NCBI GenBank assembly: GCA_001724025.1
Contig: MEDJ01000021.1
Span: forward strand, 1 to 64,000
DNA length: 64,000 bases
Source: Acidobacteria bacterium SCN 69-37
Lineage (GTDB): Bacteria > Acidobacteriota > Vicinamibacteria > Vicinamibacterales > SCN-69-37
Direction of reading: 5' to 3'
Below, piece by piece: positions 5,256 through 47,365 of this stretch. The notes under the pieces were generated by a model. It saw nothing but the letters and a program-made list of their open reading frames with translations, ran no database searches and was not told the DNA's origin. Each line of letters starts with the position of its first letter. Position 1 is the first letter of the stretch. The translations under genes and the position numbers were made by a program.

Positions 5256-6122
5256 TCAGGCCCCGCCCTCGTGTCGTTCGTGGACCGCGCGGCGACGCAG
5301 GAATTTCACGCCCTCGAAGGCAATCGACTCCGGACCGGCCGGTTCGATATCGCGCCAGATGGCCGCGGCCGCGCTGAGGTCGCCCAGCGCAAAGCCGAAG
5401 CTTTCGATCGTCAGCCAGTCGTCGTAGCCGATGTCGCGGAGCGCGGCGAACACCTCGTCCCAGGCCACGTGTCCGGTGCCGGGTGTGCCGCGATCGTTCT
5501 CGCACGTGTGCACGTGCTTGATGTGCCGGCCGGCCGTGCGGATGGCGTCCCCGACGTGCTTCTCTTCGATGTTCGCGTGGAACGTATCGAACAGCAGCCC
5601 GACACGGGGATGGCTCACCGCGTCGCAGAGGGCCGCGCCGTCGGCCGCCGTGTTCAGGAAGAACGTCTCGAACCTGTTGAGCGCTTCGATGCCGAGCGAC
5701 ACGTCGTACGTCTCGAGTGTCTCGCCGAGCTGCTGATATCCCTCGATCGCGCGCTTCCACTCATCGTCCGTGCGACGCCGACCCGGCAGGTAGCCAACGG
5801 GCGCGTAGGACGGTCCGGTGAACAGGCGGGCGCCCAGCTCCGCCGTTGCCTGCACCACGTCGCGGAGGTGCTGCACTGTCCGTTGCCGGACGTCAGCGTC
5901 ATCGCTGATCAGGCTGAGGTCCGGCAGCAGCGAGGCAACGGCCGTCCGCTCGAGGCCCACGGCTTCGGCGCTGCGGCGGATGGTGGCGGCGGCGAACTGC
6001 GCGGGACGGAAGATGGGGATCTCGACGCCGTCGAAGCCGCCGGCCTTGATCCGCGGCAGCAGGTCGAGGTGTGCCGGCGTGAAGTCAGCCGACCAGATGT
6101 ACGTGTTGACGCCGAATTTCAT
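5256..6122 (-). CDS. Sugar epimerase, D-tagatose/D-psicose 3-epimerase-like
   Basis: This 288-residue TIM-barrel protein belongs to the xylose isomerase-like sugar isomerase/epimerase superfamily. Four candidate metal ligands are visible: E146 (GIEALNRFE), D179 (LLFDTFHANIEE), H205 (KHVHTCEND) and E240 (LTIESFG). From memory the Pseudomonas cichorii D-tagatose 3-epimerase ligands are E152, D185, H211 and E246, so each is offset by the same 6 residues. That argues for the same Mn-dependent C3 epimerisation of a ketose, though the exact sugar is unknown. No signal peptide is present, so it is cytoplasmic. It lies 36 nt downstream of the sulfatase gene on the same strand and is probably co-transcribed with it. 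Confidence 0.85.
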   Translation of the reverse strand: MKFGVNTYIWSADFTPAHLDLLPRIKAGGFDGVEIPIFRPAQFAAATIRRSAEAVGLERTAVASLLPDLSLISDDADVRQRTVQHLRDVVQATAELGARLFTGPSYAPVGYLPGRRRTDDEWKRAIEGYQQLGETLETYDVSLGIEALNRFETFFLNTAADGAALCDAVSHPRVGLLFDTFHANIEEKHVGDAIRTAGRHIKHVHTCENDRGTPGTGHVAWDEVFAALRDIGYDDWLTIESFGFALGDLSAAAAIWRDIEPAGPESIAFEGVKFLRRRAVHERHEGGA

Positions 6123-6158
6123 GCATGTGTCTCCGTGAGGATCGGGGCGCTGGCCCGG

Positions 6159-7559: not shown

Positions 7560-7600
7560 GGTGCCCGTCAGTGTGCGCCCGATTGCGGCGGATGCCAAGG

Positions 7601-7640
7601 GGAGGCGGGGAGGCTGCAGGCTGGGAGGAGGCGGGAAGGC
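7601..7640 (+). repeat. Dispersed GA-rich intergenic repeat, copy 1
   Basis: This segment contains GGCGGGGAGGC followed by GCTGGGAGGAG and GGAAGGC. The same block occurs at 24092, 40251 and, reverse-complemented, 29110, with a shortened copy at 40938. All copies are intergenic. Here it lies between the divergent sulfatase and oxidoreductase genes. Confidence 0.6.
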
Positions 7641-7689
7641 CCGGCCGTTCCGGCCGGATGGCTCCGCCACCTGTCAGAAAGGTTTGCGC

Positions 7690-7724: not shown

Positions 7725-8315
7725 ATGCAGCGCAGACAATTCATGCAGGCCTTGGCGACGGTGCCCGTGGCGACGGCACTGCCTCAGCAACCAGTACCGA
7801 CAGGCGGTGGTCGGCAGGGCGGCGGCCCGAGGCCTGGCGGCGCACCTCAGGCGCCTGGCGAGCCGCTCGACTACGCGGTGCCCGATGATGTGGGCGAGCC
7901 CGTCCCCCACTTCTTCCAGGCGGCGCAACTGGCGGCTCTGACGCGCCTTGGCGATCTGCTGGTGCCAGCTGCCGACGACGAGCCGGGTGCCGTCGTCGCT
8001 CGCGCACCCGAGTTCCTCGACTTCCTGCTGAGCCGATCGCCCGTCGAGCGCCAGACGCTGTACCGGACAGGGACCGACGCACTCAACGCGCAGGCGGCGC
8101 GCCAGTTTGGCAAGGCCTTTGGCGAGACGTCGGCCGCCGAAGCGGACGCGATCGTCGAGCCGTTGCGGAACGCCTGGAGTTACGCGCCCACCGATCCATT
8201 CGAGGCGTTCCTCCGGACCGCGTATCGCGATCTGCGGCAGGCCACGGCCAGTTCCCGTGCTCGCGCCGTGGCAACAGGCAACGTTCAGACCGTCCGTTGG
8301 CTGCGTCCGCTCTGA
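7725..8315 (+). CDS. Gluconate 2-dehydrogenase subunit 3 family protein (Tat-exported)
   Basis: This 196-residue protein is the small partner of a GMC-type membrane sugar or sugar-acid dehydrogenase. The N-terminus MQRRQFMQALATVPVATAL is a short Tat-like signal, and residues 26-45 form a Gly/Pro-rich linker. The domain follows with FFQAAQLAALTRLGDLLVPAADDEPGA and ends near FEAFLRTAYRDLRQA. In characterised FAD-glucose and lactose dehydrogenases this subunit carries the Tat signal and takes the flavoprotein across the membrane with it. The downstream GMC gene, 33 nt away, has no signal of its own, which fits. The start is supported by the promoter at 7690-7718. Confidence 0.85.
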   Translation: MQRRQFMQALATVPVATALPQQPVPTGGGRQGGGPRPGGAPQAPGEPLDYAVPDDVGEPVPHFFQAAQLAALTRLGDLLVPAADDEPGAVVARAPEFLDFLLSRSPVERQTLYRTGTDALNAQAARQFGKAFGETSAAEADAIVEPLRNAWSYAPTDPFEAFLRTAYRDLRQATASSRARAVATGNVQTVRWLRPL

Positions 8316-8348
8316 CGGTGCGGCGCGTTTTCGAGGTCTGGGTGAGAC

Positions 8349-9917
8349 ATGGCAGAAATCTATGACGTCATCGTAGTCGGATCGGGTGCCGCGGGGGGCA
8401 TGGCCGCCCACGCGCTCACGGCCAGGGGAGCCCGCGTGCTCGTCCTCGAAGCGGGCGCTCCCAATACCGATCGGACGTTCGAGCAGAAAGCGACATACGA
8501 CCTGCCGTTTCAGGGGTTCGGCGACCCGACGAAGGTCCCGCACGTCTTCCAGGCGTCGGAGGCCAACGAGAACCAGTGGGTGAGCGAGCGGCAGGTGCCG
8601 TACAGCTATCCGGCCGGCGTGCCCTACAACTGGGTGCGTGTCCGGATGACTGGCGGTCGTACGAACTACTGGGCGCGTATGTCGTTCCGCTTGAGCGACC
8701 TCGAGTTCAAGGGGAAGGACTTCGACGGGTTCGGCGAGAATTGGCCGCTCGATCACGCGGAACTGGCGCCGTTCTACGAACGCGCTGAAACGATCTTTCA
8801 GGTCGCTGGCAAGAGCGAGGGGCTTTCGCAATTGCCCGACGGCAAGTTCGTCGAACGAGACACCAACTACGGCCCCGTCGCGCAACGCCTCGTCGACATC
8901 GCCAAGGCACGTGGTATTCCGAACACGCTCACGCGCTCGGCCCTCGGACGCGGCGGTCAGGCGAGTTCGGCGAACCTGCTGCTGCCCGACGCTCTGAAAA
9001 CGGGCCGGCTGACGCTCGTGCCGAACGCTGTCGCGCGCGAGATCTCGGTCGATCGGCAGACGGGGCGCGTGAACGGCGTGCATTTCGTCGATCGGTTGTC
9101 GGGACGAGAGCGACATGCCCGCGGCCGGTTCGTCGTCGTGGGTGCGGGCTGTCTCGAGAGTACGCGTCTGCTGCTCAATTCGAACATCGCCAACTCGAGC
9201 GACGCGCTCGGCCGATACCTGCACGACCAGTTCTACATCACCAACACGATCTGGGCCATCAATCCTGACGTGCGTGACGGGAAGATTGCCAGGAACACCG
9301 CCGGCGGCAACGGCTACATGCCGCGGTTCCGTAACCTGCAGAAGAATGAGAAGCACGACTTCATCCGTGGGTACGCGCTGCAGTGGAGCCTCGGCGGATC
9401 GCCGGGCCTCGACTACTTCCCGGGATACGGCGAGTCGCAGCGCGCTGCCATGGAACGGCATCAGGGCGCCGGCTTCACGGCCACAGCCATGGGCGACGTA
9501 CTGCCGCGTGCGGACAATCGCGTCACGATTAACCGGGACGTTGTCGACGACTTCGGTATTCCGACGTTGCACATCGCCTGCAGGTACACGGACAACGAGT
9601 TCAACATGGCGGCCGATGCCGTCCGTGTACTCGAGGAGTTGTCGCACGAGATGGGGTTCGAGGTATTGACGCGCCGGCCGGAGATGTATCCGCCCGGGTA
9701 CAGCATTCACGAGGTCGGCACGTGCCGTATGGGCGACGACCCGAAGACGAGCGTTCTGAATCGCTGGAACCAGAGTCACGATATCCCGAACCTGCTCGTG
9801 GTCGACGGCAGCAGCTTCGTCAGTGCCGGCTATCAGAATCCGACGATGACCATCCTCGCGTTGTCGCTTCGAGCCTCGGAGCACCTCGCAGATCTCGTCG
9901 ACAAGCGCGACCTATGA
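8349..9917 (+). CDS. GMC-family FAD oxidoreductase
   Basis: The 522-residue flavoprotein has an N-terminal FAD-binding Rossmann motif (VVGSGAAGG, residues 9-17), the GMC segment MTGGRTNYWARM and a C-terminal IHEVGTCRMGDD motif with the expected catalytic His. It ends with QNPTMTILALSLRASEHL. The family oxidises alcohol groups of sugars or sugar acids and passes electrons to a cytochrome. The region matching the Cys cluster of the second GMC protein (25287-27122) reads ALGRGGQASSANLLL here and has no Cys, so a [3Fe-4S] cluster is not expected. It has no signal peptide and probably travels with the Tat-exported subunit encoded upstream. Its stop overlaps the next start (ATGA). Confidence 0.9.
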   Translation: MAEIYDVIVVGSGAAGGMAAHALTARGARVLVLEAGAPNTDRTFEQKATYDLPFQGFGDPTKVPHVFQASEANENQWVSERQVPYSYPAGVPYNWVRVRMTGGRTNYWARMSFRLSDLEFKGKDFDGFGENWPLDHAELAPFYERAETIFQVAGKSEGLSQLPDGKFVERDTNYGPVAQRLVDIAKARGIPNTLTRSALGRGGQASSANLLLPDALKTGRLTLVPNAVAREISVDRQTGRVNGVHFVDRLSGRERHARGRFVVVGAGCLESTRLLLNSNIANSSDALGRYLHDQFYITNTIWAINPDVRDGKIARNTAGGNGYMPRFRNLQKNEKHDFIRGYALQWSLGGSPGLDYFPGYGESQRAAMERHQGAGFTATAMGDVLPRADNRVTINRDVVDDFGIPTLHIACRYTDNEFNMAADAVRVLEELSHEMGFEVLTRRPEMYPPGYSIHEVGTCRMGDDPKTSVLNRWNQSHDIPNLLVVDGSSFVSAGYQNPTMTILALSLRASEHLADLVDKRDL

Positions 9918-10435
9918 CACGGCGGTTGGCGGCCGCGGCCCTCGTTGTCTGGGCCGCGGCGCTCGTGGCTGCACAGACGCCATCACCCACCAGCAACACC
10001 GGAGATGAGGGCCTCGTCGTCCTGTCGGAGGATGAACTGCTGCGCCTGCTGCCCCTGGCTCCAGGCCGAGAGACGGTACTGCGTGTCTGCGCCAGCGAGT
10101 GCCACGCGGCTGACCGTGTAGCGGCGCACGCCGGCAACCGTGACTACTGGGATCGCATCGTTCAGGACATGACGCTCCACGGTGCCCAGTTCACGAGTGA
10201 CGAGCAGGAGGAAATCGTCACCTACCTCGTCGATCAGTTGCCTGAGAAGGTCGATATCAACCTGCTGAGTGAGCGTCTGCTGCAGACACGGTTGATGTTC
10301 ACGCCGGAAGAGGCCGCAGCCATCGTCGCCTGGAGGGCAGCCAACGGGCCGATCCGATCGCTCGAACAGCTGCAGAATATTCCTGGCGTCTCTTCAGAAA
10401 AGGTCAGGTCCGTCAGCCGGCGACTCCTTTTCTGA
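9914..10435 (+). CDS. Small exported heme-site/helix-hairpin-helix protein
   Basis: The 173-residue product has a signal peptide (residues 1-20, ending ALVAAQ). A putative heme site follows at C59-A-S-E-C63-H64, which is CX3CH rather than the usual CX2CH. The surrounding sequence (YWDRIVQDMTLHGAQ, SDEQEEIVTYLVDQLP) resembles small cytochrome-like domains of quinohemoprotein type. The C-terminus (MFTPEEAAAIVAWRAANGPI, LQNIPGVSSEKVR) is a helix-hairpin-helix unit of the ComEA/T2SK type. It overlaps the GMC gene by 4 nt and is probably the electron acceptor or a structural partner of that enzyme. The GMC/subunit-3/heme-protein set resembles other periplasmic sugar dehydrogenases. Confidence 0.7.
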   Translation: MTRRLAAAALVVWAAALVAAQTPSPTSNTGDEGLVVLSEDELLRLLPLAPGRETVLRVCASECHAADRVAAHAGNRDYWDRIVQDMTLHGAQFTSDEQEEIVTYLVDQLPEKVDINLLSERLLQTRLMFTPEEAAAIVAWRAANGPIRSLEQLQNIPGVSSEKVRSVSRRLLF

Positions 10436-10455
10436 GCGTCCATCTCCGGTCGCGC

Positions 10456-10483
10456 GCCGCCAGAGGCCGTGGCTCCTGGCGGC
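10456..10483. terminator. Hairpin between convergent genes
   Basis: GCCGCCAG pairs with CTGGCGGC, with a partly paired 12-nt interior. It lies 20 nt after the stop of the heme-site protein and before the end of the minus-strand epimerase gene at 10501, so it could serve both directions. No T-run is present. Confidence 0.5.
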
Positions 10484-10500
10484 GTCTTCCCGGCCTTCGT

Positions 10501-11484
10501 CTACGCGACCGCGGCCCGACAGTAGTCGAGACACTTCGGGATTTCGACCATCGGATCACCCGGGTACTCGAACTCGATGTTGCCGGGGATGTTCCACGAC
10601 GGGTTCTGCTTCAACAGTTGCAGGACTTCTCGGACGGGGGTATCCCCTTCGCCGAATGGTGTATTTGCGCCGTTGTCCCGCCGGCGATCCTTGATGTGGA
10701 GGCTCATCACGCGCGGCCGCTGCTCCTTCAGGAACGCCACGGGATCGAAGTTGGCCGCCGCGAAATGGCCGATGTCGAGATTGATCATGTGGAACTTCGA
10801 CGGCGCGATACAGGCGGCGAAACTCGCCGGTGTCGCGATCTGTTCGGGATCGGTCAGATTCGAGTGGCCGTGGAAACCGACCATCAACTCGTGTCGATCG
10901 GCAAACGGCGCGAGACGGTTCGCCATCGCGACGGTCGTTGACGTCGTGATGCCGACGGCGCCGAGCGCTTTCGCCATCTGGAACGCGTACTCCAGTTCCT
11001 CGTCGCTCGTTGTTTTCACGTTGAAGTTGTAAACGAGGTAGGTGATGCCGATGCCGGCATCGGCGAACGCCTGGCGGACGGGAGCGAACGTGGAAGCGAC
11101 TGCCGCCATGGCGGTCTTCCGCCATGCGGTGGCCGCCTCCTGCGCGGCGCGCTGCGCCGCCTGGAACTCGGCAATCTGCTCCGGCGTGAGGCTGCCGCGG
11201 CCGCGCCCGCGGCCGCCGCCGAGCGGCGGCGGCGCGGGCGCGCCGGCCAGGGCCTCGGCATGATTGTTCATCAGCTCGGCTTCGGTGAAGCCGAGCTTAC
11301 GCATGCCGGCCACGATGTCGCGCGCATCGGTCATGCTGCGGAAACTGTAGGTCACCGCACCGACGCGGACACCGGGTACGGGGCCGCGCGGCGCGGCGCC
11401 CTGAAAGAGTGCCGCGCCCGCCAGGCGCGGCAATACGAGGCCCGCCAGGGCCAGCTTGCCGACTTCACGTCTCGAATAACGCAT
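10501..11484 (-). CDS. Exported sugar isomerase/epimerase-like TIM-barrel protein
   Basis: The 327-residue product starts with a Tat-like signal (SRREVGKLALAGLVLPRLAGAALF). It then follows the xylose isomerase-like TIM-barrel pattern: VGAVTYSFR near the first strand, LMVGFHGHSN, HMINLDIGHFAAAN, VMSLHIKDR and GNIEFEYPGDP. The His, Asp and Glu residues at the strand ends are where metal ligands lie in this superfamily. Residues around 80-100 carry a Pro/Gly/Arg-rich insertion (PPPLGGGRGRGRG). Secreted members are common next to GMC oxidoreductases, and some superfamily members act on 3-keto-glycosides; that role is inference here. GGAA lies 6 nt before the start. The gene converges with the oxidoreductase module. 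Confidence 0.8.
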   Translation of the reverse strand: MRYSRREVGKLALAGLVLPRLAGAALFQGAAPRGPVPGVRVGAVTYSFRSMTDARDIVAGMRKLGFTEAELMNNHAEALAGAPAPPPLGGGRGRGRGSLTPEQIAEFQAAQRAAQEAATAWRKTAMAAVASTFAPVRQAFADAGIGITYLVYNFNVKTTSDEELEYAFQMAKALGAVGITTSTTVAMANRLAPFADRHELMVGFHGHSNLTDPEQIATPASFAACIAPSKFHMINLDIGHFAAANFDPVAFLKEQRPRVMSLHIKDRRRDNGANTPFGEGDTPVREVLQLLKQNPSWNIPGNIEFEYPGDPMVEIPKCLDYCRAAVA

Positions 11485-16450: not shown

Positions 16451-17818
16451 TTGAATGCGCTTGTCAGATTGCGTCAGCATCTGCTGACCGGGGTGTCGTA
16501 CGCGATCCCGTTCATCGCATGCGGCGGTGTCATGCTGGCGGCCGCCATTTCGCTGGCGCCGATGACGCCCACCGGACCGGACTTCGAGGCCACCCTCGTC
16601 GTGCGGACGCTTCACGATCTCGGTACCGCGGCTTTGACGTTGATGCTGCCGGTGCTTGCCGGCTACATCGCGTACGCCATCGCGAACAGGCCGGGACTCG
16701 TACCGGGGTTCGTCGGCGGCTGGATTGCGTCAGAGATCGGTGCGGGATTCCTCGGCGCCCTGCTCGCAGGTCTGTTCGCCGGACACGTGACCGAGTGGAT
16801 CAAGCGGCGGCGCGTGCCCTCGTGGGTCCGTCCCGTGATGCCGATCCTGATCCTCCCGATTCTCGCCACGACGGTAGTCGGTGTGTCGATGCTCTGGATC
16901 CTCGGCCCGCCCATTGCCGCGGTGATGGCCGGCGCGACGGCCGTGCTCGCCGACCTCAATGCCGGCAATCGTGCCGTGCTCGGACTGATCCTCGGCGGGA
17001 TGATTGCCATCGACATGGGCGGTCCCATCAACAAGACCGCCTTCTTCTTCGGTGCCGCCATGATTCAGGAGGGGGACCCGCGCATCATGGGCGCGTGCGC
17101 TGCGGCCATCTGCACGCCGCCGCTCGGTCTGGGCCTGGCCACCCTGGTGCGGCGGACGTGGTGGACGTCCGAGGAGCGCGAAGCCGGCGTCGCGAGTCTG
17201 ACCATGGGCGTCGTGGGAATCACCGAGGGCGCCATTCCGTTCGCTGCCGCCGATCCGCTGCGGGTGATTCCCTGCATCATGGCCGGCTCGATGGTGGCAT
17301 CGGCCATCGCGATTCTCGCCGGCGTCGGCGATCACGCCCCGCACGGGGGCCTGATCGTGCTGCCGGTGATCGAACAGAAAGTGGCGTACGTCCTGGCAAT
17401 CGTCGTGGGTACGGCAGTGACCGCTGTGGCCATGTGCGCTGTGCGCTATCGCGCGCAGAGGAAATCGGGACGCATTGGCAAGGGAGGCGCAATGAAGATC
17501 GTCGCAGTCACGGCGTGCCCCACGGGCATCGCTCACACCTACATGGCCGCTGAACACCTCGGAAAGTCCGCCCGCGCGCTCGGACACCAGATCAAGGTCG
17601 AGACGCAGGGCGCGATGGGCATCGAGAACGAGTTGTCGGAGCGCGATATCCGGGAGGCACAGGTCGCCATCTTCGCCATCGATATCGAGATCGAGAAGCG
17701 CGACCGCTTCAAAGCCATCAAGGTGGTCGAGGTATCGGTCCAGGAGGCGATTCGCGACGCGAACGGCCTCATTACGCGTGTGGTCGCCGAGCCCGAGAGT
17801 CTGAGTCTGAGAGCCTGA
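16451..17818 (+). CDS. PTS fructose-type transporter, fused IIC-IIB
   Basis: The 455-residue protein has an N-terminal membrane IIC domain (about residues 1-335, several hydrophobic helices, motifs GVSYAIPFIACGGVM and MGVVGITEGAIPFAAADPLR). A C-terminal IIB domain begins at MKIVAVTACPTGIAHTYMAA. The phosphorylated Cys is C356. Together they carry and phosphorylate a sugar of the fructose/mannitol class. Enterobacterial FruA has the order IIB'-IIB-IIC, so the order here is reversed. Start is TTG, with GGAG 9 nt upstream. The gene ends 4 nt before the HPr-EI-EIIA gene. No 1-phosphofructokinase gene is in the window, so the identity of the sugar is open. Confidence 0.9.
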   Translation: MNALVRLRQHLLTGVSYAIPFIACGGVMLAAAISLAPMTPTGPDFEATLVVRTLHDLGTAALTLMLPVLAGYIAYAIANRPGLVPGFVGGWIASEIGAGFLGALLAGLFAGHVTEWIKRRRVPSWVRPVMPILILPILATTVVGVSMLWILGPPIAAVMAGATAVLADLNAGNRAVLGLILGGMIAIDMGGPINKTAFFFGAAMIQEGDPRIMGACAAAICTPPLGLGLATLVRRTWWTSEEREAGVASLTMGVVGITEGAIPFAAADPLRVIPCIMAGSMVASAIAILAGVGDHAPHGGLIVLPVIEQKVAYVLAIVVGTAVTAVAMCAVRYRAQRKSGRIGKGGAMKIVAVTACPTGIAHTYMAAEHLGKSARALGHQIKVETQGAMGIENELSERDIREAQVAIFAIDIEIEKRDRFKAIKVVEVSVQEAIRDANGLITRVVAEPESLSLRA

Positions 17819-17822
17819 GCCT

Positions 17823-20342
17823 GTGTCCCGGCATCTGTACTTCACGTGTCCGTTGAGCGCGGGCCTGCACGCGCGGCCGGCCAGTCGCCTCGTGGAGATC
17901 GCGAGCGGCTTCACCGCGATCTGTTCGCTGATCAACACGCGATCCGGCGCGCGCGCGGATGCCAAGAGCGTGCTCGCCATCCTCGCGGCGGACGTCGGTG
18001 CGGGGGATGCGTGCGACCTCGAGGTCTGCGGGAGCGACGAGGCCGCGGCGCGGGCGGCGCTCGAGACGTTTCTGCGTGCGGAGTTGCCCGGCTACGAAGA
18101 GGCGTCGCCCTCGATTCCGGCCGAGACGTCAACGCTGCCGTGCGGACTGGAGCGATCCGGGGCGCGGTGGTCGCGCGGGCTCGCCGTCAGCCCCGGGGTC
18201 GGACTCGGGCGCGTGGTGCTCGTCGCCGCAGCGCCCTGGATTCGCGATCAGGCCGATCTGGCTGCATCGTCACCGCCCGATCTGGCTGCCGAACACCAGA
18301 AACTCGCGCGGGCCATCCATGCGGTCCGCGGGCGCCTCGAGGCGCGGCTGGCCGAGCGGCCGCCATCGGCCGAGGCCGCCATCCTGATGGCACACGAGGC
18401 GATGGTGACCGATCCGTGGCTGAGTGCCGCGATCGGTGAGGCCATCGATGGTGGTCAGTCGGCGGCTGCGGCCATCGTTGGTGCCGCCGATCGATTCTCT
18501 GCGTCCATGGCGCTTGCGCGGACGCGGGCTCTCCGCGAACGGGTCGCCGATGTACAGGGGATCTGCCGGCAACTGCTCGATGACGTCTGTGGCCTGTCTG
18601 GCGACGAGCGGATTCCGAACCTCGTCGGTCCATCCGTGATCGTGGCCGAGACGATGACGCCTCAGCAACTGCTCGGTCTCGATCGCACGCGGATTGTTGG
18701 AATCGTGCTCGAGAGCGCGGGGACGACATCTCACACGGTCATCCTCGCGCGGTCGCTCGGGATTCCGACGATCGTCGGCGCGGCCCGGGCGCGCGACGTC
18801 CTGCCGGCCGGTCTCGACGTCGTCGTCGATGGACACCGCGGCGTGATCGTCTCGGACCTGACGGTCGCCGCGCGCGAGTTCTACGCGCGCGAATTGACAC
18901 GGCTGCGCGCGCGCGCGGCGGTCCTGGCGCGGGCCGCCGTCGATCCCGTGACGACGGCCGACGGTCGGCCGTTCGAAGTCGGCGCCAACGTGTCGTCGAT
19001 CGAGGAACTCGACGCGGTCCGGCAGGGGGGCGCCGACGGGATCGGTCTCTTCCGGACGGAACTGCTCTTCCTGCGCGCGTCGGAACTGCCGTCCGAAGAG
19101 GCGCAGTTCGCCATCTACGGCGAGGCCGTCCGCGCGATGCAGGGACGGCCCGTCATCGTCCGCACGCTCGACCTCGGCGGCGACAAGCCCGTGGCGGCCG
19201 TGCCGATGCCGCAGGAGGCGAATCCGTTCCTCGGATATCGCGGCGTCCGGGCCTACGTCGAGCACCAGCAGTTGATCCGCACGCAGTTGCGCGCCATCGT
19301 CCGGGCCTCTGCCCTCGGGCCCATCGAACTGCTCCTGCCCATGGTGTCGTCGATCGAGGAGGTGCTCTGGGTCAAGGCGCAGATCGCCCACGTCCAGGAC
19401 GACCTCGCCACGCGCGGCGTGCCGTTCGATCGCGACATGCCGATCGGGATCATGCTCGAGGTCCCGGCGGTGTCGTTCGTGCTCGATCGGCTGTGCCGGG
19501 AAGTGGACTTCTTCAGCATCGGCACGAACGATCTCTGCCAGTACTTCTTTGCGGCCGACCGCGGCAACACCCGCGTGGCGCCGCTGGCCAACGTGACGCA
19601 CCCCGGCTTTCTGCGATTCCTGAAGCAGATTGTCGACGAGATCCGGACGCACGGCCGCTGGGTCGGGCTCTGCGGCGAGATGGCCGGCGATGTCCGGCTC
19701 CTGCCGTTGCTGATCGGGCTGGGACTCGACGAAATCAGCGCGGCGGGCCTCCGGATTCCCGTGTTGAAGGCGCGTATCGCCCGGCTGTCGGCGGTCGAGT
19801 GTGTCGATCTGTTCGCGCGGGCGACGCAGTGCCAGAGCAGCGACGAGGTCGACGCGTTGCTCGACGGCACGCGGACGATCGATCCGCCCCGGCCGCTCGT
19901 CGAGCCCGAGATCGTCCGGCTCGATGGGACGTGCGCGTCCAGGGAGGAGGCGATCCGGACGCTTGTCGATGCGCTGTACGTCGCCGGCCGCACGGAGGAT
20001 CCGTGTGCGCTCGAAGAGGCGGTGTGGCGGCGGGAGGAGGCGTACGCGACGACTGTCGGCGACGGTATCGCCGTGCCGCACTGCCGGACGGATGCCGTGA
20101 CGAGCGACTCGGTCGGCATCCTCAAGTTGCGGGAGCCGGTGCCCTGGGGAGGCGACGGGACACCCGTGCAGATGGTGTTCCTGCTGGCCATCAGGGAGAC
20201 GAGCCCGAGCCGTGCGCACATGCGGGTGTTCTCCCGGCTCGCGCGCATGTTGATCGACGCGGATTTCCGTGAAGACCTGCTGCGCGCTGCCGATCCGGCG
20301 AGCGTGATCGACCAGTTGTCTGCCGAACTGCAGGTGGTGTGA
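17823..20342 (+). CDS. Multiphosphoryl transfer protein HPr-EI-EIIA (PTS)
   Basis: The 839-residue protein contains all the soluble PTS steps. HPr is at residues 1-90 with phospho-His H16 (GLHARPA). Enzyme I is at about residues 115-670 with phospho-His H304 (GTTSHTVILAR) and the PEP-site segments GTNDLCQYFFAADRGN and GLCGEMAGD. A fructose-type EIIA follows at about 690-835 with H753 (GIAVPHCR). It would take phosphate from PEP to IIB of the adjacent transporter. Known fused FruB proteins, as I recall, place EIIA first, so a C-terminal EIIA is a different arrangement. The start is GTG, 4 nt after the IIC-IIB stop. Confidence 0.92.
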   Translation: MSRHLYFTCPLSAGLHARPASRLVEIASGFTAICSLINTRSGARADAKSVLAILAADVGAGDACDLEVCGSDEAAARAALETFLRAELPGYEEASPSIPAETSTLPCGLERSGARWSRGLAVSPGVGLGRVVLVAAAPWIRDQADLAASSPPDLAAEHQKLARAIHAVRGRLEARLAERPPSAEAAILMAHEAMVTDPWLSAAIGEAIDGGQSAAAAIVGAADRFSASMALARTRALRERVADVQGICRQLLDDVCGLSGDERIPNLVGPSVIVAETMTPQQLLGLDRTRIVGIVLESAGTTSHTVILARSLGIPTIVGAARARDVLPAGLDVVVDGHRGVIVSDLTVAAREFYARELTRLRARAAVLARAAVDPVTTADGRPFEVGANVSSIEELDAVRQGGADGIGLFRTELLFLRASELPSEEAQFAIYGEAVRAMQGRPVIVRTLDLGGDKPVAAVPMPQEANPFLGYRGVRAYVEHQQLIRTQLRAIVRASALGPIELLLPMVSSIEEVLWVKAQIAHVQDDLATRGVPFDRDMPIGIMLEVPAVSFVLDRLCREVDFFSIGTNDLCQYFFAADRGNTRVAPLANVTHPGFLRFLKQIVDEIRTHGRWVGLCGEMAGDVRLLPLLIGLGLDEISAAGLRIPVLKARIARLSAVECVDLFARATQCQSSDEVDALLDGTRTIDPPRPLVEPEIVRLDGTCASREEAIRTLVDALYVAGRTEDPCALEEAVWRREEAYATTVGDGIAVPHCRTDAVTSDSVGILKLREPVPWGGDGTPVQMVFLLAIRETSPSRAHMRVFSRLARMLIDADFREDLLRAADPASVIDQLSAELQVV

Positions 20343-20392: not shown

Positions 20393-23300
20393 ATGTATCA
20401 GAAGGTCCGTCACGTGATGTGGGCGATCGCAGGCGCCGTTGCGCTCCTGATCGCCGGCATCGGCACTCCGGCCCTGGCCCAGGTGGCCACGGGGACCGTC
20501 ACGGGCACCGTGCACGACGCCCAGGGGGGCGCGATGCCCGGGGCCACCGTCACGCTCACCAGCGCCACGCGCGGGACGAGCCTCGACGTGGTCACGAATA
20601 CGAGCGGCGAGTTCACGTTTCCGAACGTCGCTGCTGATACCTATCACGCCCGGGTCTCGATGACCGGATTCAAGGCACTCGAACGCCGCGACATCGCCGT
20701 CAGCCCCGGCGACCGCGTCGTCATCGGCACGCTGACGATCGAGGTCGGCGAGCTCTCCGAAACCATCACCGTCTCATCGGAAGCGCCGCTCATCCAGGCG
20801 CAGACCGGTGAGCGATCCTTCACGATCGGCACCGAGGCCATCCAGGGCCTGCCGATGTCGAACCGCGGCTGGAACGCGATGCTGGGGCTCACGCCTGGCG
20901 TCGTCGGATCGGTGCGGCTCGGCAGTCCGGGCGCGAACAACAACAACGTGATGATGGACGGCGTCGCCATCATGGACACCGGCAACAACGGACAGATGCT
21001 GTCGACGAACGTCGAGGCGATTGCCGAGGTCAAGATCCTCACGCAGGGGTACCAGGCCGAGTACGGCCGCGCGAGCGGCATGCAGATCACGGCCGTCACC
21101 AAGAGCGGCACGAACCGGTTCAACGGATCGGTCTACGACGTGGAGCGCAACTCGGACTGGAACGCCAACAGCTGGCAGAACATCGAGAACGGCATCGCGA
21201 AGTCGATCTCCAAGCAGCGTGACTGGGGCTACACGATCGGCGGACCCATCGGCCGGCCCGGCGGCGAGAACAAGCTGTTCTTCTTCTATGGCCACGAGTA
21301 CCGGCCACGCACCAGCGGCGGGAACGTGTCGCGGTTCCGCGTGCCGACCGCGCTCGAGCGGCAGGGCGACTTCTCGCAGAGCACGAACAACAACGGCGCG
21401 ATCGTCAACCTGATCCGCGACACGACCACGGGTCTGCCGTGCACGGCGGCCAACACCAGCGGCTGCTTCCAGGCCGACGGCGTGCTCGGCCGCATCCCGC
21501 AGGACCGGCTGTATCCGCTGGGCCTGAACATCCTGCGGCTCTGGCCCGAGCCCAACACGGAAGGGCTCAACTACAACTTCGAGTCGCGATCGCCTCTCGA
21601 CAAGCGCCTGACGCAGCAGCCGACCGTGCGTGTCGACTGGCAGGCGTCGTCGGCCTTCCGCGTCACGGGCAAGTACACGGGACAGGCCGGGACGGTGCGC
21701 AAGACCGTCGGATCGATCCCCGGCTTCAACGACACGATGAACCGGTACCCGTTCATCTACCAGCCGTCGGCCACCGTCAACTACACGGCCTCGTCGACGC
21801 TGTTCCTCGAGGTGACCTACGGATTCATCCAGAACCAGCTCGGCACGCCGATCGTCAGCGAGGCGAGCAACAGGTGCAACGTCGGGCTGTGCGACATCCC
21901 GCTGCTGTTCCCCGATGCCGGCGTGGTCAACCCGGCCTACTACAACCCGAAGGTGCTCGAGGCCATCGATTCGCCGATGTACGTCGACGGCCGCATCATG
22001 CTGCCGCCGAGCTTCAGCTGGGGCAACCTCGTGTCGAATGCGCCGCCGAACCTGATCTACCCGGCGTTCCTGAACCGGAACCGCACGCACAACCTGTCGG
22101 CGAGCGCCACGAAGCTGATGGGCCGTCACTCGCTGAAGGCGGGCGTGTACTGGTTCAGCGCACTCAAGAACGAGAACCTCGGCATCGCCGGAACGACGCC
22201 GTTCTACGGCAACATCAATTTCGGCAACGACACGAACAATCCACTCGATGCGGGCTTCGGCTTCGCGAACGCGGCACTGGGCGTGTTCTCGAGCTACGCG
22301 CAGCAGTCGAAGTTCGTCGAGGGCGCGTACGCCTACAACAACACCGAGTGGTACCTGCAGGACAACTGGCGCGTGAACGGCCGACTCACGCTCGACTACG
22401 GCGTGCGCTTCACGCACCAGCAGCCGCAGCACGATTCGCTGCACCAGGCCTCGAACTTCTTCCTGCCGGGCGAGGGCGGTCCCACGGCATGGTCGGCGGC
22501 CAATGCGCCGCGGCTCTACGTGCCGGGCTGCCTGGGCGCGTCGCCGTGCAGCGGCGCGAACCGCGTGGCCGTCGATCCGGCCACGGGACAGTCGCTCGGT
22601 GCGGGATCCGCGCTGGCCATCGCGACACTCGTACCCGGCAGCGGCGACATCGCCAATGGTGTCGTGCCGGCCGGGCAGGGCATTGCCCCCGAAAACTATG
22701 TCTGGCCGGCCGTCGTCGCGGCTCCGCGATTCGGAGTGGCCTATGACCTGACCGGCGACCAGTCGATGGTCGTACGCGGCAGCGTCGGCATGTTCTTCGA
22801 TCGGCCCGAAGGCAACACCACGTCGAACCAGATCGGCAACGTGCCGAACTCGACGAACACGACGGTGCGCTACTCGCGTCTCCAGGAACTCGGCCAGGGT
22901 GGACTGGCGACACAGGCGCCAGCCACGCTCAACGTCTTCACGTACGACGCGAAGATCCCGACGTCGCTGCAGTGGAGCGCGGGCGTGCAGATGGCGCTGC
23001 CGTGGGCCTCGGCTCTCGACGTCTCGTACGTCGGGACGCACGGCTACAACCTGATGAATCCGTTCAACCAGACGATCGACATCAACGCGGTCCCGTTCGG
23101 TGCGGCGTTCAGGTCGGAGAACCAGGACCCGACGCTGGCCGCGTCGGCCATTCCCGGCAACACGGCGCTGTCGACCGACCTGCTGCGGCCCCTGTCCGGC
23201 TACGGGCAGATCCAGCGGCAGATCCCGGGGTTCTGGACCGATTTCCACTCGATCCAGGCCTCGCTCAACCGCCGCTTCCGCAACGGGCTCCAGTTCAACG

Positions 23301-24091
23301 TGAACTACACGCTGACGATGCGGCAGGCGGGCACGAACACGCTCAACAGCAACGAGGGGATGCGGCTCGTGCTCGACCCGGACACGCTCACGCTCAGCGA
23401 ACACCCGAGCTGGGCCGAGGCCGAGCGGCTGCTCGGCGAGAACAATGGCCTGCGCCGGCACACCATGCGCGGCAACGTCGTGTGGGACATGCCGGATCTG
23501 CGATCCGACTCGGCCGCCGGGCGCGTGGTGGGCGCGATCGTCAACGACTGGTCGCTCGGCGCGGTGCTCACGCTCGGATCGGGCGCCCCGTACACCGTGG
23601 GCTACAGCTACACGACGGCCGGCGGCAGCCTGAATCTGACCGGCACGCCGAACTACGCGGCGCGCGTGAACATCGTGGGGGACCCGGGCAGCGGCTGCGA
23701 TCGCGGCAACCAGTACCGGCAGTTCAACACGGACGCGTTCGCCGGTCCGACGACAGGCAGCGTCGGGACCGAGTCGGGACGCAACTACCTGAGCGCGTGC
23801 GGGGATCGGAACATCGATCTGGCGCTGTCGCGGACGATCCGCCTCGGCGGCGGGCGCGCGATCGAACTGCAGGCGCAGTTCTTCAACGTGTTCAACATCG
23901 TGAACTACAGCGGGCGGAGCACGACGATGCAGATGAACAACCCGACCGCGCAGACCGTGCAGAACTTCCAGTACAACGCGGATGGATCGATCAACGACAG
24001 CCGGACGCGGCCGCAGAACGCGGGCTTCGGTGCGGTCAGCTCGGCGCAGGCCATGCGATCGACGCAACTGCAGGTACGCTTCAGGTTCTAG
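20393..24091 (+). CDS. TonB-dependent receptor with carboxypeptidase-regulatory-like domain
   Basis: This 1232-residue receptor has a signal peptide ending TPALAQ, a carboxypeptidase-regulatory-like domain (GTVHDAQGGAMPGATVTL), a plug (FTIGTEAIQGLPM, MMDGVAIMDTGNN, YQAEYGRASGMQITAVTKSG) and a barrel ending MRSTQLQVRFRF. It is closely similar to the receptor at 11595-15278, sharing VSMTGF, IAVSPGDRV and LTIEVG at matching positions, so a duplication around the PTS genes is likely. The start at 20393 has a consensus AGGAGGAAGC. The gene lies 50 nt after the PTS gene and could be in the same transcript. The next gene follows after one copy of the GA-rich repeat. Confidence 0.92.
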   Translation: MYQKVRHVMWAIAGAVALLIAGIGTPALAQVATGTVTGTVHDAQGGAMPGATVTLTSATRGTSLDVVTNTSGEFTFPNVAADTYHARVSMTGFKALERRDIAVSPGDRVVIGTLTIEVGELSETITVSSEAPLIQAQTGERSFTIGTEAIQGLPMSNRGWNAMLGLTPGVVGSVRLGSPGANNNNVMMDGVAIMDTGNNGQMLSTNVEAIAEVKILTQGYQAEYGRASGMQITAVTKSGTNRFNGSVYDVERNSDWNANSWQNIENGIAKSISKQRDWGYTIGGPIGRPGGENKLFFFYGHEYRPRTSGGNVSRFRVPTALERQGDFSQSTNNNGAIVNLIRDTTTGLPCTAANTSGCFQADGVLGRIPQDRLYPLGLNILRLWPEPNTEGLNYNFESRSPLDKRLTQQPTVRVDWQASSAFRVTGKYTGQAGTVRKTVGSIPGFNDTMNRYPFIYQPSATVNYTASSTLFLEVTYGFIQNQLGTPIVSEASNRCNVGLCDIPLLFPDAGVVNPAYYNPKVLEAIDSPMYVDGRIMLPPSFSWGNLVSNAPPNLIYPAFLNRNRTHNLSASATKLMGRHSLKAGVYWFSALKNENLGIAGTTPFYGNINFGNDTNNPLDAGFGFANAALGVFSSYAQQSKFVEGAYAYNNTEWYLQDNWRVNGRLTLDYGVRFTHQQPQHDSLHQASNFFLPGEGGPTAWSAANAPRLYVPGCLGASPCSGANRVAVDPATGQSLGAGSALAIATLVPGSGDIANGVVPAGQGIAPENYVWPAVVAAPRFGVAYDLTGDQSMVVRGSVGMFFDRPEGNTTSNQIGNVPNSTNTTVRYSRLQELGQGGLATQAPATLNVFTYDAKIPTSLQWSAGVQMALPWASALDVSYVGTHGYNLMNPFNQTIDINAVPFGAAFRSENQDPTLAASAIPGNTALSTDLLRPLSGYGQIQRQIPGFWTDFHSIQASLNRRFRNGLQFNVNYTLTMRQAGTNTLNSNEGMRLVLDPDTLTLSEHPSWAEAERLLGENNGLRRHTMRGNVVWDMPDLRSDSAAGRVVGAIVNDWSLGAVLTLGSGAPYTVGYSYTTAGGSLNLTGTPNYAARVNIVGDPGSGCDRGNQYRQFNTDAFAGPTTGSVGTESGRNYLSACGDRNIDLALSRTIRLGGGRAIELQAQFFNVFNIVNYSGRSTTMQMNNPTAQTVQNFQYNADGSINDSRTRPQNAGFGAVSSAQAMRSTQLQVRFRF

Positions 24092-24183: not shown

Positions 24184-25203
24184 ATGTGTCGCACGATCGA
24201 TCGTCGACAGTTCATCGAGCGGACCGCGCTCGGGGCGGCCGGGCTCGTCGCGGCCGGGACGGCACCGGCGCTGGCCCGCACGCCGCAGGCACCGGGCGGC
24301 ATGTTCATCTCGCTCGCGCCGTGGGCCACGGCGCGCGGCGTCGGGTGGCCGGAACAGGCGCGACTGGCCTCGAGGGTGGGGTATCGCGGCATCGACTACG
24401 CGTGGGGCCCGGTGAAGGAGGCGGGCGTCGAGGCCACGCGCGCCCTGATGAACGAACTCAATCTGGTGCCCACGATCTGCAACCTGCCGACGCCCAACCC
24501 ACTCAACGGGGACGACGCGGCGTTCAAGGCGCGCATGGCCACGATGGCTGACGACGCGGCGTTCAGCGCGGCGATTGGCAGCCGGCGCTTTCAGCTCGTG
24601 CTCGGCGCGACGACGCCGGGTGGACGGCCGAAGGCGGAGCACTGGAAGCTCGTCCGCGATCGGCTGGCCGCCGTCTCCGAGGTGTTCGTGAAGCACGACG
24701 TCCATCTCAGCCTCGAGTTTCTCGGGCCGCTCGTGTTCAGAGCCGGACGTGGCGGCGGTGGCCGGCGCGGGGGCGGGCCGCCGGATCCGAATGCGCCGCC
24801 GGCACCACCGGTCCCGTTCGTCTGGACGCTGACCGAGACGGCGAAGCTCTGCGAAGAGGTGGGGCCGAACATCGGCGTCACGCTCGACGCCTGGCACTGG
24901 TATCACTCGGGCGGGACGGTGGCCGACATCCTGGCCACGCCGCGCGAGCGCATCGTGCACGTGCACGTGTCGGACGCGCGCGAGATGCCGCCTGCCGAAG
25001 TGCAGGACAACATGCGGCTGCTGCCGGGTGAGGGCGTGATCGATCTCGTCGGGTTCTTCCGGGCGCTGCAGCAGATCCGGTGGACCGGCGGCGTGGCGTG
25101 CGAAACGATCGGCGCGCGTCTCGACGACGTGGCGCCGGAAGAACAGGCACGGCTGGGCCTCGCATCGACGAGGGCCGTGATGGAGAAGGCCGGCGTCCTG
25201 TAG
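24184..25203 (+). CDS. Exported sugar isomerase/epimerase-like TIM-barrel protein
   Basis: The 339-residue product has a Tat-type signal (TIDRRQFIERTALGAAGLVAAG). The barrel pattern includes VGYRGIDYAW, RFQLVLGATTPGG, VHLSLEFLGP, NIGVTLDAWHWYHSG, IVHVHVSDA and GGVACETIG; the Glu, Asp, His and Glu in these segments are the expected metal ligands. Residues about 185-205 carry a Gly/Arg/Pro-rich insertion (GRGGGGRRGGG). A periplasmic place beside a GMC dehydrogenase suggests it processes the oxidised sugar, as superfamily members that isomerise or eliminate 3-keto-glycosides do; that is inference. GGAG lies 5 nt before the start codon. The GMC gene begins 83 nt downstream. Confidence 0.82.
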   Translation: MCRTIDRRQFIERTALGAAGLVAAGTAPALARTPQAPGGMFISLAPWATARGVGWPEQARLASRVGYRGIDYAWGPVKEAGVEATRALMNELNLVPTICNLPTPNPLNGDDAAFKARMATMADDAAFSAAIGSRRFQLVLGATTPGGRPKAEHWKLVRDRLAAVSEVFVKHDVHLSLEFLGPLVFRAGRGGGGRRGGGPPDPNAPPAPPVPFVWTLTETAKLCEEVGPNIGVTLDAWHWYHSGGTVADILATPRERIVHVHVSDAREMPPAEVQDNMRLLPGEGVIDLVGFFRALQQIRWTGGVACETIGARLDDVAPEEQARLGLASTRAVMEKAGVL

Positions 25204-25286
25204 ACTGTCGGTCTCATATTCATGACATCGGACGCGGGCGCCGCAGGGCGTCCTGTCGTCCGGGACTTCGAGGAAGAGGTCGCCAT

Positions 25287-27122
25287 ATGGCCCAAGGGGC
25301 AAATTCCACTGTTCACGACGTCGTCATCATCGGCTCGGGAGCCGGCGGCGGTACCGTCACCAAGGTCCTCGCCGACATGGGGATCAAGGTGCTGTTGATG
25401 GAGGCCGGCCCCATGATCGACATGTCGGACTTCAAGACGATGATGGGGCCGTCCGATGTCTGGCATCGCGGGGCTGGCGACGCGGCGGAGTTGTACACGG
25501 AGGGGCGGGCTGCCGCACTCAACTACTCCGCGAGTTTCTCCGCCAACATGGCCGACGAGCCGTACACGGTGGCGCCCGGCAGCCAGTTCCGGCTCTTCCG
25601 GTCGCGCGTGATCGGCGGCCGCACGAATCACTACGCGCGCGTGCAGCTGCGCTATTCCGACTACGACTTCAAGCCGCGGTCGATGAACGACGTCGGATGG
25701 GACTGGCCGATCTCGTACGCCGACGTGGCGCCGTACTACGACAAGGCCGAGCGGCTGATTGGCGTGACCGGCAGGCCCGAGGGGCTGCGCAGCGCACCCG
25801 ACGGCATTTTCCAGACGCCCGCGCCGTTCAAGGTCCACGAGGAACTGCTGTATCGATCGTGCGCGAAGCTCGGCATCAAGGCGACGAGCGCGCGGCAGGC
25901 CGTCATCACCCATGCGCTCAACGGCCGGCCCGGCTGCATCTACTGCGGGCAGTGCGGGCGCGGCTGCCGCTTCGGATCGAACTACGCCTCGACGTACGTC
26001 CAGATCTTCCCCGCGATGCGCACGGGCAACGTGACGGTGCTGGCCAACGCGATGGCCCGCGAGCTCATCACCGACGCGTCGGGCAAGGTGACGGCCGTGT
26101 CGTACGTCGACAAGACCACGGGCACCGAGCGCCAGGTGCGGTGCCGGACGGTGGTGCTGTCGGCCGCGTCGTGCGAATCGGCGCGCCTGCTCCTGAACTC
26201 GAAGTCGTCGCGTCACCCGGACGGCCTCGCCAATTCGGCGGGTCAGGTCGGCAAGTACCTCACCGACACGGTCGGCTTCGGCCTGTCGGCCACGGTGCCG
26301 TACCTGCGCGGCACGCCGATCCACAACACCGACGGCTATGGGGCGCACCTCTACATTCCGTGGTGGATGGCCGACAGGCACCGTGAACTCGACTTCCCGC
26401 TGGGCTACCACGTCGAGGTGGGCGGCGGCGGGTTCGGTCAGCCGACGCTCGGCTTCGGGGCGCAGGCCCTCAACCAGGCGGAAGGGTACGGCCTGCCGAT
26501 GAAGCAGGCGATCCGCGAGTCGTACGGCGGCATCAACATCAGCCTGACCGGCCGCGGGTCGATGGTGCCGAACGAGGATTCGTACTGCGAGATCGATCCC
26601 GAAGTGAAGGACAAGTGGGGGATTCCGGCCCTGCGCTTCCACTGGAAGTGGAGCGACTACGAGCGCAACCAGGCGCGGCACATGCGCGAGAGCTTCCGCG
26701 CGATCCTCGAGACGCTGGGCGGCACCGTGAACGCGCCACCCGCGGGACGTGGCGGCGGGGCCGGGGCGCGCGGGCAGGGCGCCGCGGGACGGGCCGGTGG
26801 GGCCGGGGCCGCCGGTGCGCCGCAGGCCGCGGCGGGGCGCGGCGCGATCAACCCGCCTGGTGTCGATCCGAACGACGATCGGCCGCAGCTCGGGCCCGGC
26901 GGCGGCATCATCCACGAGGTGGGCTGCGTGCGCATGGGAGACGATCCGAAGACGAGCGTGCTGAACCGTTTCTGCCAGACGCACGAGGTCAGCAACGTGT
27001 TTTCGGCCGATGGTGGGCCGTTCGTCAGTCACGGCGACAAGAACCCGACGCACACCATCATCGCGCTCGCGTGGCGCACGGCCGAGTACCTGGCCGAAGA
27101 AATGAGGAAGGGCAATGTCTGA
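25287..27122 (+). CDS. GMC-family FAD oxidoreductase with Cys cluster (LacA/FAD-GDH-like)
   Basis: The 611-residue flavoprotein has the FAD motif IGSGAGGG (residues 15-22), the GMC segment VIGGRTNHYARV and the C-terminal catalytic region IIHEVGCVRMGDD with KNPTHTIIALAWR. Cys residues 217, 220, 223 and 227 (PGCIYCGQCGRGC) form a compact cluster suited to an iron-sulfur centre. Bacterial FAD-glucose dehydrogenases carry a [3Fe-4S] centre in this region. It should oxidise a sugar or glycoside in the periplasm and pass electrons to the cytochrome c encoded downstream. A 38-residue Gly/Ala/Arg-rich insertion interrupts the C-terminal half. There is no signal peptide, so export with the Tat-bearing subunit is likely. 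It overlaps the next gene by 8 nt. The ribosome-binding site is AGGAAGAGG. Confidence 0.9.
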   Translation: MAQGANSTVHDVVIIGSGAGGGTVTKVLADMGIKVLLMEAGPMIDMSDFKTMMGPSDVWHRGAGDAAELYTEGRAAALNYSASFSANMADEPYTVAPGSQFRLFRSRVIGGRTNHYARVQLRYSDYDFKPRSMNDVGWDWPISYADVAPYYDKAERLIGVTGRPEGLRSAPDGIFQTPAPFKVHEELLYRSCAKLGIKATSARQAVITHALNGRPGCIYCGQCGRGCRFGSNYASTYVQIFPAMRTGNVTVLANAMARELITDASGKVTAVSYVDKTTGTERQVRCRTVVLSAASCESARLLLNSKSSRHPDGLANSAGQVGKYLTDTVGFGLSATVPYLRGTPIHNTDGYGAHLYIPWWMADRHRELDFPLGYHVEVGGGGFGQPTLGFGAQALNQAEGYGLPMKQAIRESYGGINISLTGRGSMVPNEDSYCEIDPEVKDKWGIPALRFHWKWSDYERNQARHMRESFRAILETLGGTVNAPPAGRGGGAGARGQGAAGRAGGAGAAGAPQAAAGRGAINPPGVDPNDDRPQLGPGGGIIHEVGCVRMGDDPKTSVLNRFCQTHEVSNVFSADGGPFVSHGDKNPTHTIIALAWRTAEYLAEEMRKGNV

Positions 27123-27705
27123 CATCACCAGACGCGACGCACTGAAGGGGCTGGCCGTCGCCTTTGCGACGGCTGGCGTCATCGATCACCTGGCCGCGGC
27201 CGACGCCCACGCCATGGTTTCGCAGATCACGGCCGTCGGTCCGTACACGCCGAAGGCGCTGACGCCGCACCAGTACCAGACGCTGCTGACGCTGACCGAC
27301 TTCATCGTGCCTGTCGAGAACAACAAGCCCGGGGCCGCGCAGGCGGGGGTGCCCGGGTGGATCGACTCGCTGCTGGCCGTGAATGCCGACCTGAAGAAGC
27401 GCTACGTCGACGGGCTCGGCTGGATCGATCAGACGATGACGTCACGGCACGGCACGGACTTTCTCGGCGGGGCGCGCGGGCAGCAGACGGGATTGCTCGA
27501 TCAGATCGCGTTCCAGAAGAACCGATCGGCCGCGCTCGATCCGGGGATCGACTTCTTCATCCTGCTGCGGCGCATGACCGTGGACGGCTTCTACACGAGC
27601 CCGATCGGCCAGCGCGACATCTATCCCGGCAACATGGCCCGCAGCGAGTTCGTCGTCCCGAAGGAGGCGATGGACTATGTCATCAACCGCAGTCCGCTGC
27701 GATAG
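27115..27705 (+). CDS. Gluconate 2-dehydrogenase subunit 3 family protein (Tat-exported)
   Basis: The 196-residue small subunit begins with a Tat signal (TRRDALKGLAVAFATAG). The domain shows LTPHQYQTLLTLTDFIVPVENNKPGA, then FFILLRRMTVDGFYTSPIGQRDI. It is paralogous to the protein at 7725. It overlaps the GMC gene by 8 nt, so the two are translationally coupled and probably form one complex. In lactose 3-dehydrogenase of Caulobacter the matching subunit is LacC; the equivalence is inference from gene order and family. Confidence 0.87.
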   Translation: MSDITRRDALKGLAVAFATAGVIDHLAAADAHAMVSQITAVGPYTPKALTPHQYQTLLTLTDFIVPVENNKPGAAQAGVPGWIDSLLAVNADLKKRYVDGLGWIDQTMTSRHGTDFLGGARGQQTGLLDQIAFQKNRSAALDPGIDFFILLRRMTVDGFYTSPIGQRDIYPGNMARSEFVVPKEAMDYVINRSPLR

Positions 27706-27711
27706 GCTCGG

Positions 27712-28149
27712 ATGATGCGGATGGGAACGCGCCGGCTCGCGCCGGTCTGGGTGGGTGTGGCGATCGGGATCCTGATGGTCGCGGCGCCCATCGCGCGTGC
27801 TGGAGACAGGCAGGACGACGCCGCGGGCGGTGCCGGCGTGATGGACGAACTGTTCGACGAGGGATCGGTCGTGTTCGGGACGCACTGTGTGGCGTGCCAC
27901 GACTCGGCGGGCGGCGATGGCCAGGCGCCGGCCCTGTCGGGGCATCCGTCGATGGGGGCGAAGGATCACATCGTCCGCCAGGTGCTGCGGGGGAACCTCG
28001 AGAAGGGGATGCCGGCATTCGCCAGCCAGTTGAGCGACAGGCAGGTGGCCGCGGTTGCGACCTACATCCGCAACGCCTGGGAGAACGGCTACGGCGTGGT
28101 GCTCGAAGCCGACGCGAAGCGGATCCGCGCCGAGGTCAAGGCCGAGTAG
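27712..28149 (+). CDS. Small periplasmic cytochrome c
   Basis: The 145-residue protein has an N-terminal hydrophobic signal (APVWVGVAIGILMVAAPIARA) and one heme c site, CVACH, with a likely axial Met in LEKGMPAFA. It ends with a lysine- and arginine-rich helix. It lies 6 nt after the subunit-3 gene and is the probable electron acceptor of the GMC dehydrogenase. This completes a flavoprotein/small subunit/cytochrome set. Three in-frame ATGs lie at the start; the first is given. Its last 14 nt overlap the end of the convergent gene at 28136. Confidence 0.87.
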   Translation: MMRMGTRRLAPVWVGVAIGILMVAAPIARAGDRQDDAAGGAGVMDELFDEGSVVFGTHCVACHDSAGGDGQAPALSGHPSMGAKDHIVRQVLRGNLEKGMPAFASQLSDRQVAAVATYIRNAWENGYGVVLEADAKRIRAEVKAE

Positions 28150-47284: not shown

Positions 47285-47348
47285 GGGATGACTCGGATCC
47301 TAGCAGCCCGCGCCCGTGAAGGGGGGATGGGAGGCTGGATGGGGCAGT

Positions 47349-47365
47349 GTTTCGCCTGCCGAAAC
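47349..47365. promoter_or_regulatory. 17-bp palindrome GTTTCG-N5-CGAAAC between lutA and the hybrid regulator
   Basis: A perfect inverted repeat with spacer CCTGC. It sits in the 239-nt divergent region, 65 nt upstream of lutA and 159 nt upstream of the regulator. Its position suits control of both genes. Related sites are at 44129, 44237, 48671, 52845 and 62118. Confidence 0.6.

Follow-up and report, generated by a model that had tools for sequence, protein, structure and literature searches.

Contig C21 of Acidobacteria bacterium SCN 69-37 (a genome of 4.43 Mb in 25 contigs) carries in its initial 64,000 nucleotides, hereafter the window, adjoining genes for a secreted TIM barrel, a GMC flavoprotein, a subunit 3 and a cytochrome c, which together probably form a periplasmic sugar or glycoside dehydrogenase module with a keto-sugar isomerase. 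To judge from its sequence, the flavoprotein falls in an uncharacterised branch apart from both LacA, of the glycoside 3-dehydrogenase LacABC, and gluconate 2-dehydrogenase. A first-pass annotation had assigned the three enzyme parts to the LacA/LacC/LacB type and had proposed that the 3-keto product is cleaved by the protein of a DUF1080 gene at 62415.

All four open reading frames are coding and lie where that annotation placed them; reading frames, coding signal (third-codon GC 0.86-0.90 in the flavoprotein, subunit 3 and cytochrome genes) and Pfam domains agree. The matches are AP_endonuc_2 for the TIM barrel (E 3e-30), GMC_oxred_C and GMC_oxred_N for the flavoprotein (E 1e-18 and 2e-12), Gluconate_2-dh3 for subunit 3 (E 4e-23) and a CBB3-type domain for the cytochrome (E 1e-13). 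The last three genes do form one tight run: the flavoprotein and subunit 3 genes overlap by 8 nucleotides, stop over start, and a gap of 6 nucleotides precedes the cytochrome gene. The TIM-barrel gene lies 83 nucleotides upstream of the flavoprotein gene. Export signals were judged by eye; twin-arginine-type signals (Tat, twin-arginine translocation) stand at the N-termini of subunit 3 (MSDITRRDALKGLAVA) and of the TIM barrel (MCRTIDRRQFIERTALG), and the N-terminus of the flavoprotein has none, as expected because such a partner is exported together with its subunit. A signal-less GMC protein with a Tat-bearing PF13618 partner places the pair in the broad group of GMC + PF13618 periplasmic dehydrogenases. 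At superfamily level the description as a GMC, hitchhiker subunit 3 and cytochrome c dehydrogenase with a secreted epimerase-like protein holds well.

As LacABC references we used two Caulobacter genomes, relatives of C. crescentus and not that strain, which were located through their S-layer protein and then searched with the window flavoprotein. Both hold a cluster fitting the description published for C. crescentus (PMC9007349), in the order DUF1080, LacI-type regulator, MFS transporter, Tat-type TIM barrel, Gfo/Idh/MocA-type gene, second TIM barrel, LacB, DUF1080, LacA and LacC (TIM barrels assigned by Pfam, DUF1080 by profile, MFS and the others by similarity clustering together with inspection). 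The window flavoprotein is 30% identical to Caulobacter LacA, against the threshold of at least 40% set for LacA-like proteins by Price et al.; the LacA-type proteins of the genome, on contigs C2 and C5, are 58% identical to LacA, and each is paired with a subunit 3 of the LacC clade. A tree of 66 proteins placed the window flavoprotein within a 37-member branch (SH-aLRT 99) that is separate from the LacA clade (support 100) and from the clade of FDH and gluconate dehydrogenase (GADH), and a 23-protein tree gave the same branching. In the smaller tree, grouping the flavoprotein with LacA cost 193 log-likelihood units and was rejected (p-AU 2e-35), and grouping it with FDH/GADH was weakly disfavoured (p-AU 0.038). 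The subunit-3 tree agrees: the window protein, 32% identical to Caulobacter LacC, lies outside the LacC clade, which takes in the C2 and C5 subunits. The phylogeny that the first-pass annotation had suggested thus leaves both proteins outside the LacA and LacC clades, and in both flavoprotein trees the window protein falls in an uncharacterised branch separate from FDH, FAD-GDH and gluconate 2-dehydrogenase; the grouping with gluconate 2-dehydrogenase that was named there as decisive against it was likewise not found. Searching a plasmid collection for close relatives returned a best match of 41% identity, from Hymenobacter, with the identical four cysteines.

Those cysteines are part of a signature that sets the branch apart. 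In the alignment the window flavoprotein has the motif CX2CX2CX3C (C217, C220, C223 and C227), a retained His/Asn pair of catalytic type (H543/N586) and a histidine, H115, which aligns with the FDH/GADH histidine at the covalent-FAD position. The four cysteines and H115 are invariant in all 37 aligned proteins of its own and the sister branch, and branch members outside the class have the same sites where the motif was read. A third group, of seven proteins, keeps the four cysteines with M or T at the histidine site. At the second cysteine position LacA-type proteins show R and FDH/GADH-type proteins N; the histidine site is occupied by M, T or L in the former and by His in the latter. Both Caulobacter LacA proteins have the cysteine pattern CX5CX3C and the motif GIHEMGTARMG, where the window flavoprotein reads GIIHEVGCVRMG around its catalytic histidine (IIHEVG). 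In BcGDH, a [3Fe-4S] cluster sits on the three cysteines that match window ones, the additional Cys213 is disulfide-bonded to the small subunit, and His105 is the residue that binds FAD (PMC6719666). Because the window subunit 3 contains no cysteine, a disulfide like that of Cys213 is impossible in the window pair, and with nothing there to pair with, the fourth cysteine is more likely an Fe-S ligand. From these residues we predict a [4Fe-4S] cluster and covalent FAD in the flavoprotein.

A true LacABC/FAD-GO glycoside 3-dehydrogenase, its 3-keto product cleaved by the DUF1080 protein, has the shared fold and subunit plan, the conserved catalytic histidine and the presence of a DUF1080 gene in the window (PF06439, E 1e-33) in its favour, as well as the adjacency of LacA-type and four-cysteine-type genes in some clusters, such as L095 and the genome's own C5. 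We nevertheless consider it very unlikely, and as a statement of membership it is largely refuted: identity to LacA is 30% against 58% for the C2 and C5 paralogues, the LacA clade is rejected, four cysteines stand against three, H115 against T, M or L and IIHEVG against GIHEMGTARMG, the cytochrome is unlike LacB, and the DUF1080 gene has a conserved cluster of its own. That gene is one of about 13 DUF1080 genes in the genome and lies 34 kb from the module. In the same-genus genome G003 its orthologue (71-74% identity) has as neighbours the orthologues of window genes 45108, 47434, 48938 and 63494 as well as UPF0261 and FAD_binding_4 genes, and the contig that carries them is not that of the flavoprotein module. 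Because G003 keeps this DUF1080 cluster on another contig, the window holds two separate modules, and this synteny ruled out the gene at 62415 as part of the dehydrogenase module.

Among loci fetched at 8-20 kb each, DUF1080 genes lie near the flavoprotein at 15 of 26 in the sister branch and at none of the 11 in the window's own sub-branch (Fisher p 0.0009, which overstates the evidence because the loci are related and some stretches are short). The sister branch, which adjoins DUF1080, Gfo/Idh/MocA, MFS and TIM-barrel genes much like the Caulobacter lac cluster, is thereby tied to 3-keto-glycoside genes. For the window, the DUF1080 protein as dedicated cleaving partner has to be given up, although it may act in trans on the product of the module.

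The flavoprotein/subunit-3 pair is present in nearly all related loci. In G003 the run of flavoprotein, subunit 3 and cytochrome is conserved at 67-81% identity. Downstream of it come counterparts of window genes 29167 and 31365, and upstream lies a divergent TIM-barrel gene (76% identity); a 78% orthologue of the window's signal-less TIM barrel (Table 1) sits 5 nucleotides from that TIM-barrel gene. That this protein too belongs to the module is a weaker claim, its gene being 18 kb distant in the window. G071, a genome of a different family, has TIM barrel, flavoprotein, subunit 3 and a TonB receptor in one row, and in G151 the TIM barrel adjoins a TonB receptor, the flavoprotein being on another short contig. 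These two receptors are the closest matches of the one at 20396 (61% for that beside the TIM barrel in G151, 53% for that beside subunit 3 in G071). Because receptors adjoin module genes in both genomes, the window receptor is probably a member of the module and the importer of its substrate.

Table 1. Genes of the module and associated candidates in the window.
Feature	Coordinates	Strand	Basis
TonB-dependent receptor (CarboxypepD_reg + outer-membrane barrel OMP_b-brl_4)	20396..24091	+	Pfam; start codon inferred
Xylose-isomerase-like TIM barrel with Tat-type signal, 339 aa	24184..25203	+	Pfam, alignment, fold search
GMC flavoprotein dehydrogenase without signal, 611 aa	25287..27122	+	Pfam, alignment, trees
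Tat-bearing subunit 3 (PF13618), hitchhiker-type partner	27115..27705	+	Pfam, tree
Exported monohaem cytochrome c (CVACH), 145 aa	27712..28149	+	Pfam
Ketose 3-epimerase-like TIM barrel without signal	5256..6122	-	78% orthologue in G003

The secreted TIM barrel has E178, D235, H261 and E307 invariant in its homologue alignment; with the ligand roles usual in the superfamily, these residues fit a metal site like that in sugar isomerases and epimerases. Its model (pLDDT 79) found 3u0h and IolI as best PDB folds, followed by many ketose 3-epimerases; IolI is second-best by both structure and profile. The match to a TIM barrel of the lac cluster is marginal (BLAST E 0.01). In sequence and model the protein fits the keto-sugar isomerase/epimerase type. 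Oxidation at C3 followed by beta-elimination in the TIM barrel, in the manner of AtOGE or of a C-glycoside eliminase (CGE), seems quite unlikely to us. AtOGE and CGE are Mn2+ TIM barrels and the AtOGE operon includes a flavin glycoside dehydrogenase (PMC10628242), and the same fold class is encoded beside the window dehydrogenase, but at the strand of AtOGE's ligand His132 and base His134 the window protein has E178-F-L180, invariant in 7 homologues (compared by strand position, not superposition). Moreover, no OGE or CGE structure was among its PDB profile matches or 50 best fold matches. OGE-like cleavage is thus disfavoured, and isomerisation or epimerisation of the keto product is favoured over it because the base histidine is absent.

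Subunit 3, which may or may not share its structure with the small subunits of GDH/FDH, gave no sequence or fold match against PDB chains; its model, of fair confidence (pLDDT 80), found no PDB fold at E <= 0.001, and the PF13618 family seems to be without a solved structure. The cytochrome has a single CXXCH and no BLASTP match to LacB at E <= 1; it is the probable electron acceptor.

Taken as a pathway, the module would work as follows. The TonB receptor would carry a sugar or glycoside through the outer membrane, and the flavoprotein, exported through the Tat system by way of subunit 3, would oxidise a secondary hydroxyl of it. C3 is the likeliest guess for the position, a specificity made plausible, by analogy, because the sister branch is DUF1080-linked. 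Electrons would pass from FAD to the Fe-S cluster on the four cysteines and on to cytochrome c, and the secreted TIM barrel, as a metal enzyme, would isomerise or epimerise the keto product in the periplasm. Tentatively, the four-cysteine branch may be a class of its own among periplasmic sugar dehydrogenases, common across the phylum and distinguished by a [4Fe-4S] cluster, covalent FAD and a site or substrate preference unlike that of LacA. With a secreted keto-sugar isomerase coupled to it here, glycoside oxidation and isomerisation would both be extracytoplasmic.

Several observations weigh against a sugar dehydrogenase module with its own isomerase. The motif CX2CX2CX3C is no proof of a [4Fe-4S] cluster, and the substrate is something we infer. 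The pair in G071 has no adjoining cytochrome gene. The TIM barrel is rare, in 7 of 149 class genomes, and adjoins the flavoprotein in only three genomes. The f5 genomes (55% identity) retain only the flavoprotein/subunit-3 pair, among housekeeping genes and with no sugar genes, and because of this context the sub-branch may differ in role. The same context, together with IolI as second-best match of the TIM barrel, speaks for a dehydrogenase of another polyol (such as the cyclitol inositol) or of a sugar acid; the TIM barrel would then be an inosose isomerase resembling IolI. We regard this as unlikely: the sister branch is tied to 3-keto-glycoside genes, the presence of a TonB receptor points to a substrate that is large or scarce, and membership in the FDH/GADH clade is disfavoured, if at a p-AU of 0.04 only. 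The sugar or glycoside dehydrogenase remains the reading we prefer.

Many GMC/subunit-3 pairs in genomes of this group are uncharacterised, and resemblance is what usually earns them the name gluconate 2-dehydrogenase or lactose 3-dehydrogenase. The signature of four cysteines and a flavin histidine marks a large branch, inside which none of the characterised enzymes compared falls, and the four-cysteine pair is an assay-ready target. Since the LacA-type enzymes of this genome are encoded on C2 and C5, any LacA-type 3-keto-glycoside pathway is to be sought there. A search of the literature for GMC/DUF1080 or GMC/[4Fe-4S] combinations yielded nothing useful, a weak result with most subscription papers outside its scope.

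Some further features touch these genes. LacA-type or LacA-side flavoproteins stand adjacent to four-cysteine ones at G000:C5:14526-19085 (L081), on G003:C61 and at L095 and L088, which suggests that the two are complementary, not redundant. Directly upstream of the TonB receptor lie genes of a phosphotransferase system (PTS; 16451-20342) for a lactose/cellobiose-type IIB-domain protein and a fused HPr-EI-IIA protein; a PTS beside a periplasmic oxidation module is unexpected, and in G003 it is not beside the module. Low-complexity inserts rich in Gly, Arg, Ala and Pro occur in the secreted TIM barrel (residues 186-206, not present in its f10 homologues) and in the flavoprotein (a Gly/Arg-rich stretch, about residues 488-520), with similar ones in proteins at 7725, 10501, 40972 and 61977; many of the insert-bearing proteins are exported. 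The DUF1080 cluster (L085), at 45108-52531 and from 62415 to C21:67332, comprises a LUD/LutB-like protein, an IclR-type/periplasmic-binding regulator, a TonB receptor, DUF1080, a TIM barrel, UPF0261 and a FAD_binding_4 protein; contiguous in G003, it is split in the window by 52848-62110. Another module, at 7725-11484, has a Tat subunit 3, a GMC flavoprotein with none of the four Fe-S cysteines and a divergent Tat TIM barrel whose relatives in other genomes are found within DUF1080 clusters, along with sulfatase-like and ketose 3-epimerase-like genes at 5256-7670.

Among known systems, LacABC of Caulobacter (PMC9007349) shares the signal-less GMC flavoprotein, Tat subunit 3, cytochrome c and secreted TIM barrel of the window cluster. 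Unlike it, the window flavoprotein lies in another clade, with four cysteines rather than three and a histidine at the flavin-ligand position; the cytochrome and TIM barrel are not homologous by BLAST, and the module cluster is without DUF1080. AtOGE (PMC10628242) likewise has a metal TIM-barrel gene beside a flavin glycoside dehydrogenase, but its ligand His132 and base His134 are Glu and Leu in the window protein. FAD-GO and GlycDH (PMC4650693, PMC10628242) resemble the window pair in the GMC protein with a TAT partner, the overlapping genes and the catalytic histidine; the window partner is downstream, overlaps by 8 nucleotides and has an RR signal. FAD-GO differs in carrying APGMGIHEMGTAR, like LacA (read from a printed primer), where the window protein has GIIHEVGCVRMG, so that of GIHEMGTAR around His493 the histidine is conserved and the rest of the motif differs. 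Burkholderia FAD-GDH and Gluconobacter FDH (PMC6719666) belong to a separate clade with a [3Fe-4S] cluster on three cysteines, and FAD-GDH has a three-haem cytochrome subunit against the monohaem protein of the window; yet they share the histidine at the covalent-FAD position and a cysteine loop in the same place, and are the closest solved structures by sequence (6a2u and 7w2j; E 5e-39 and 2e-46).

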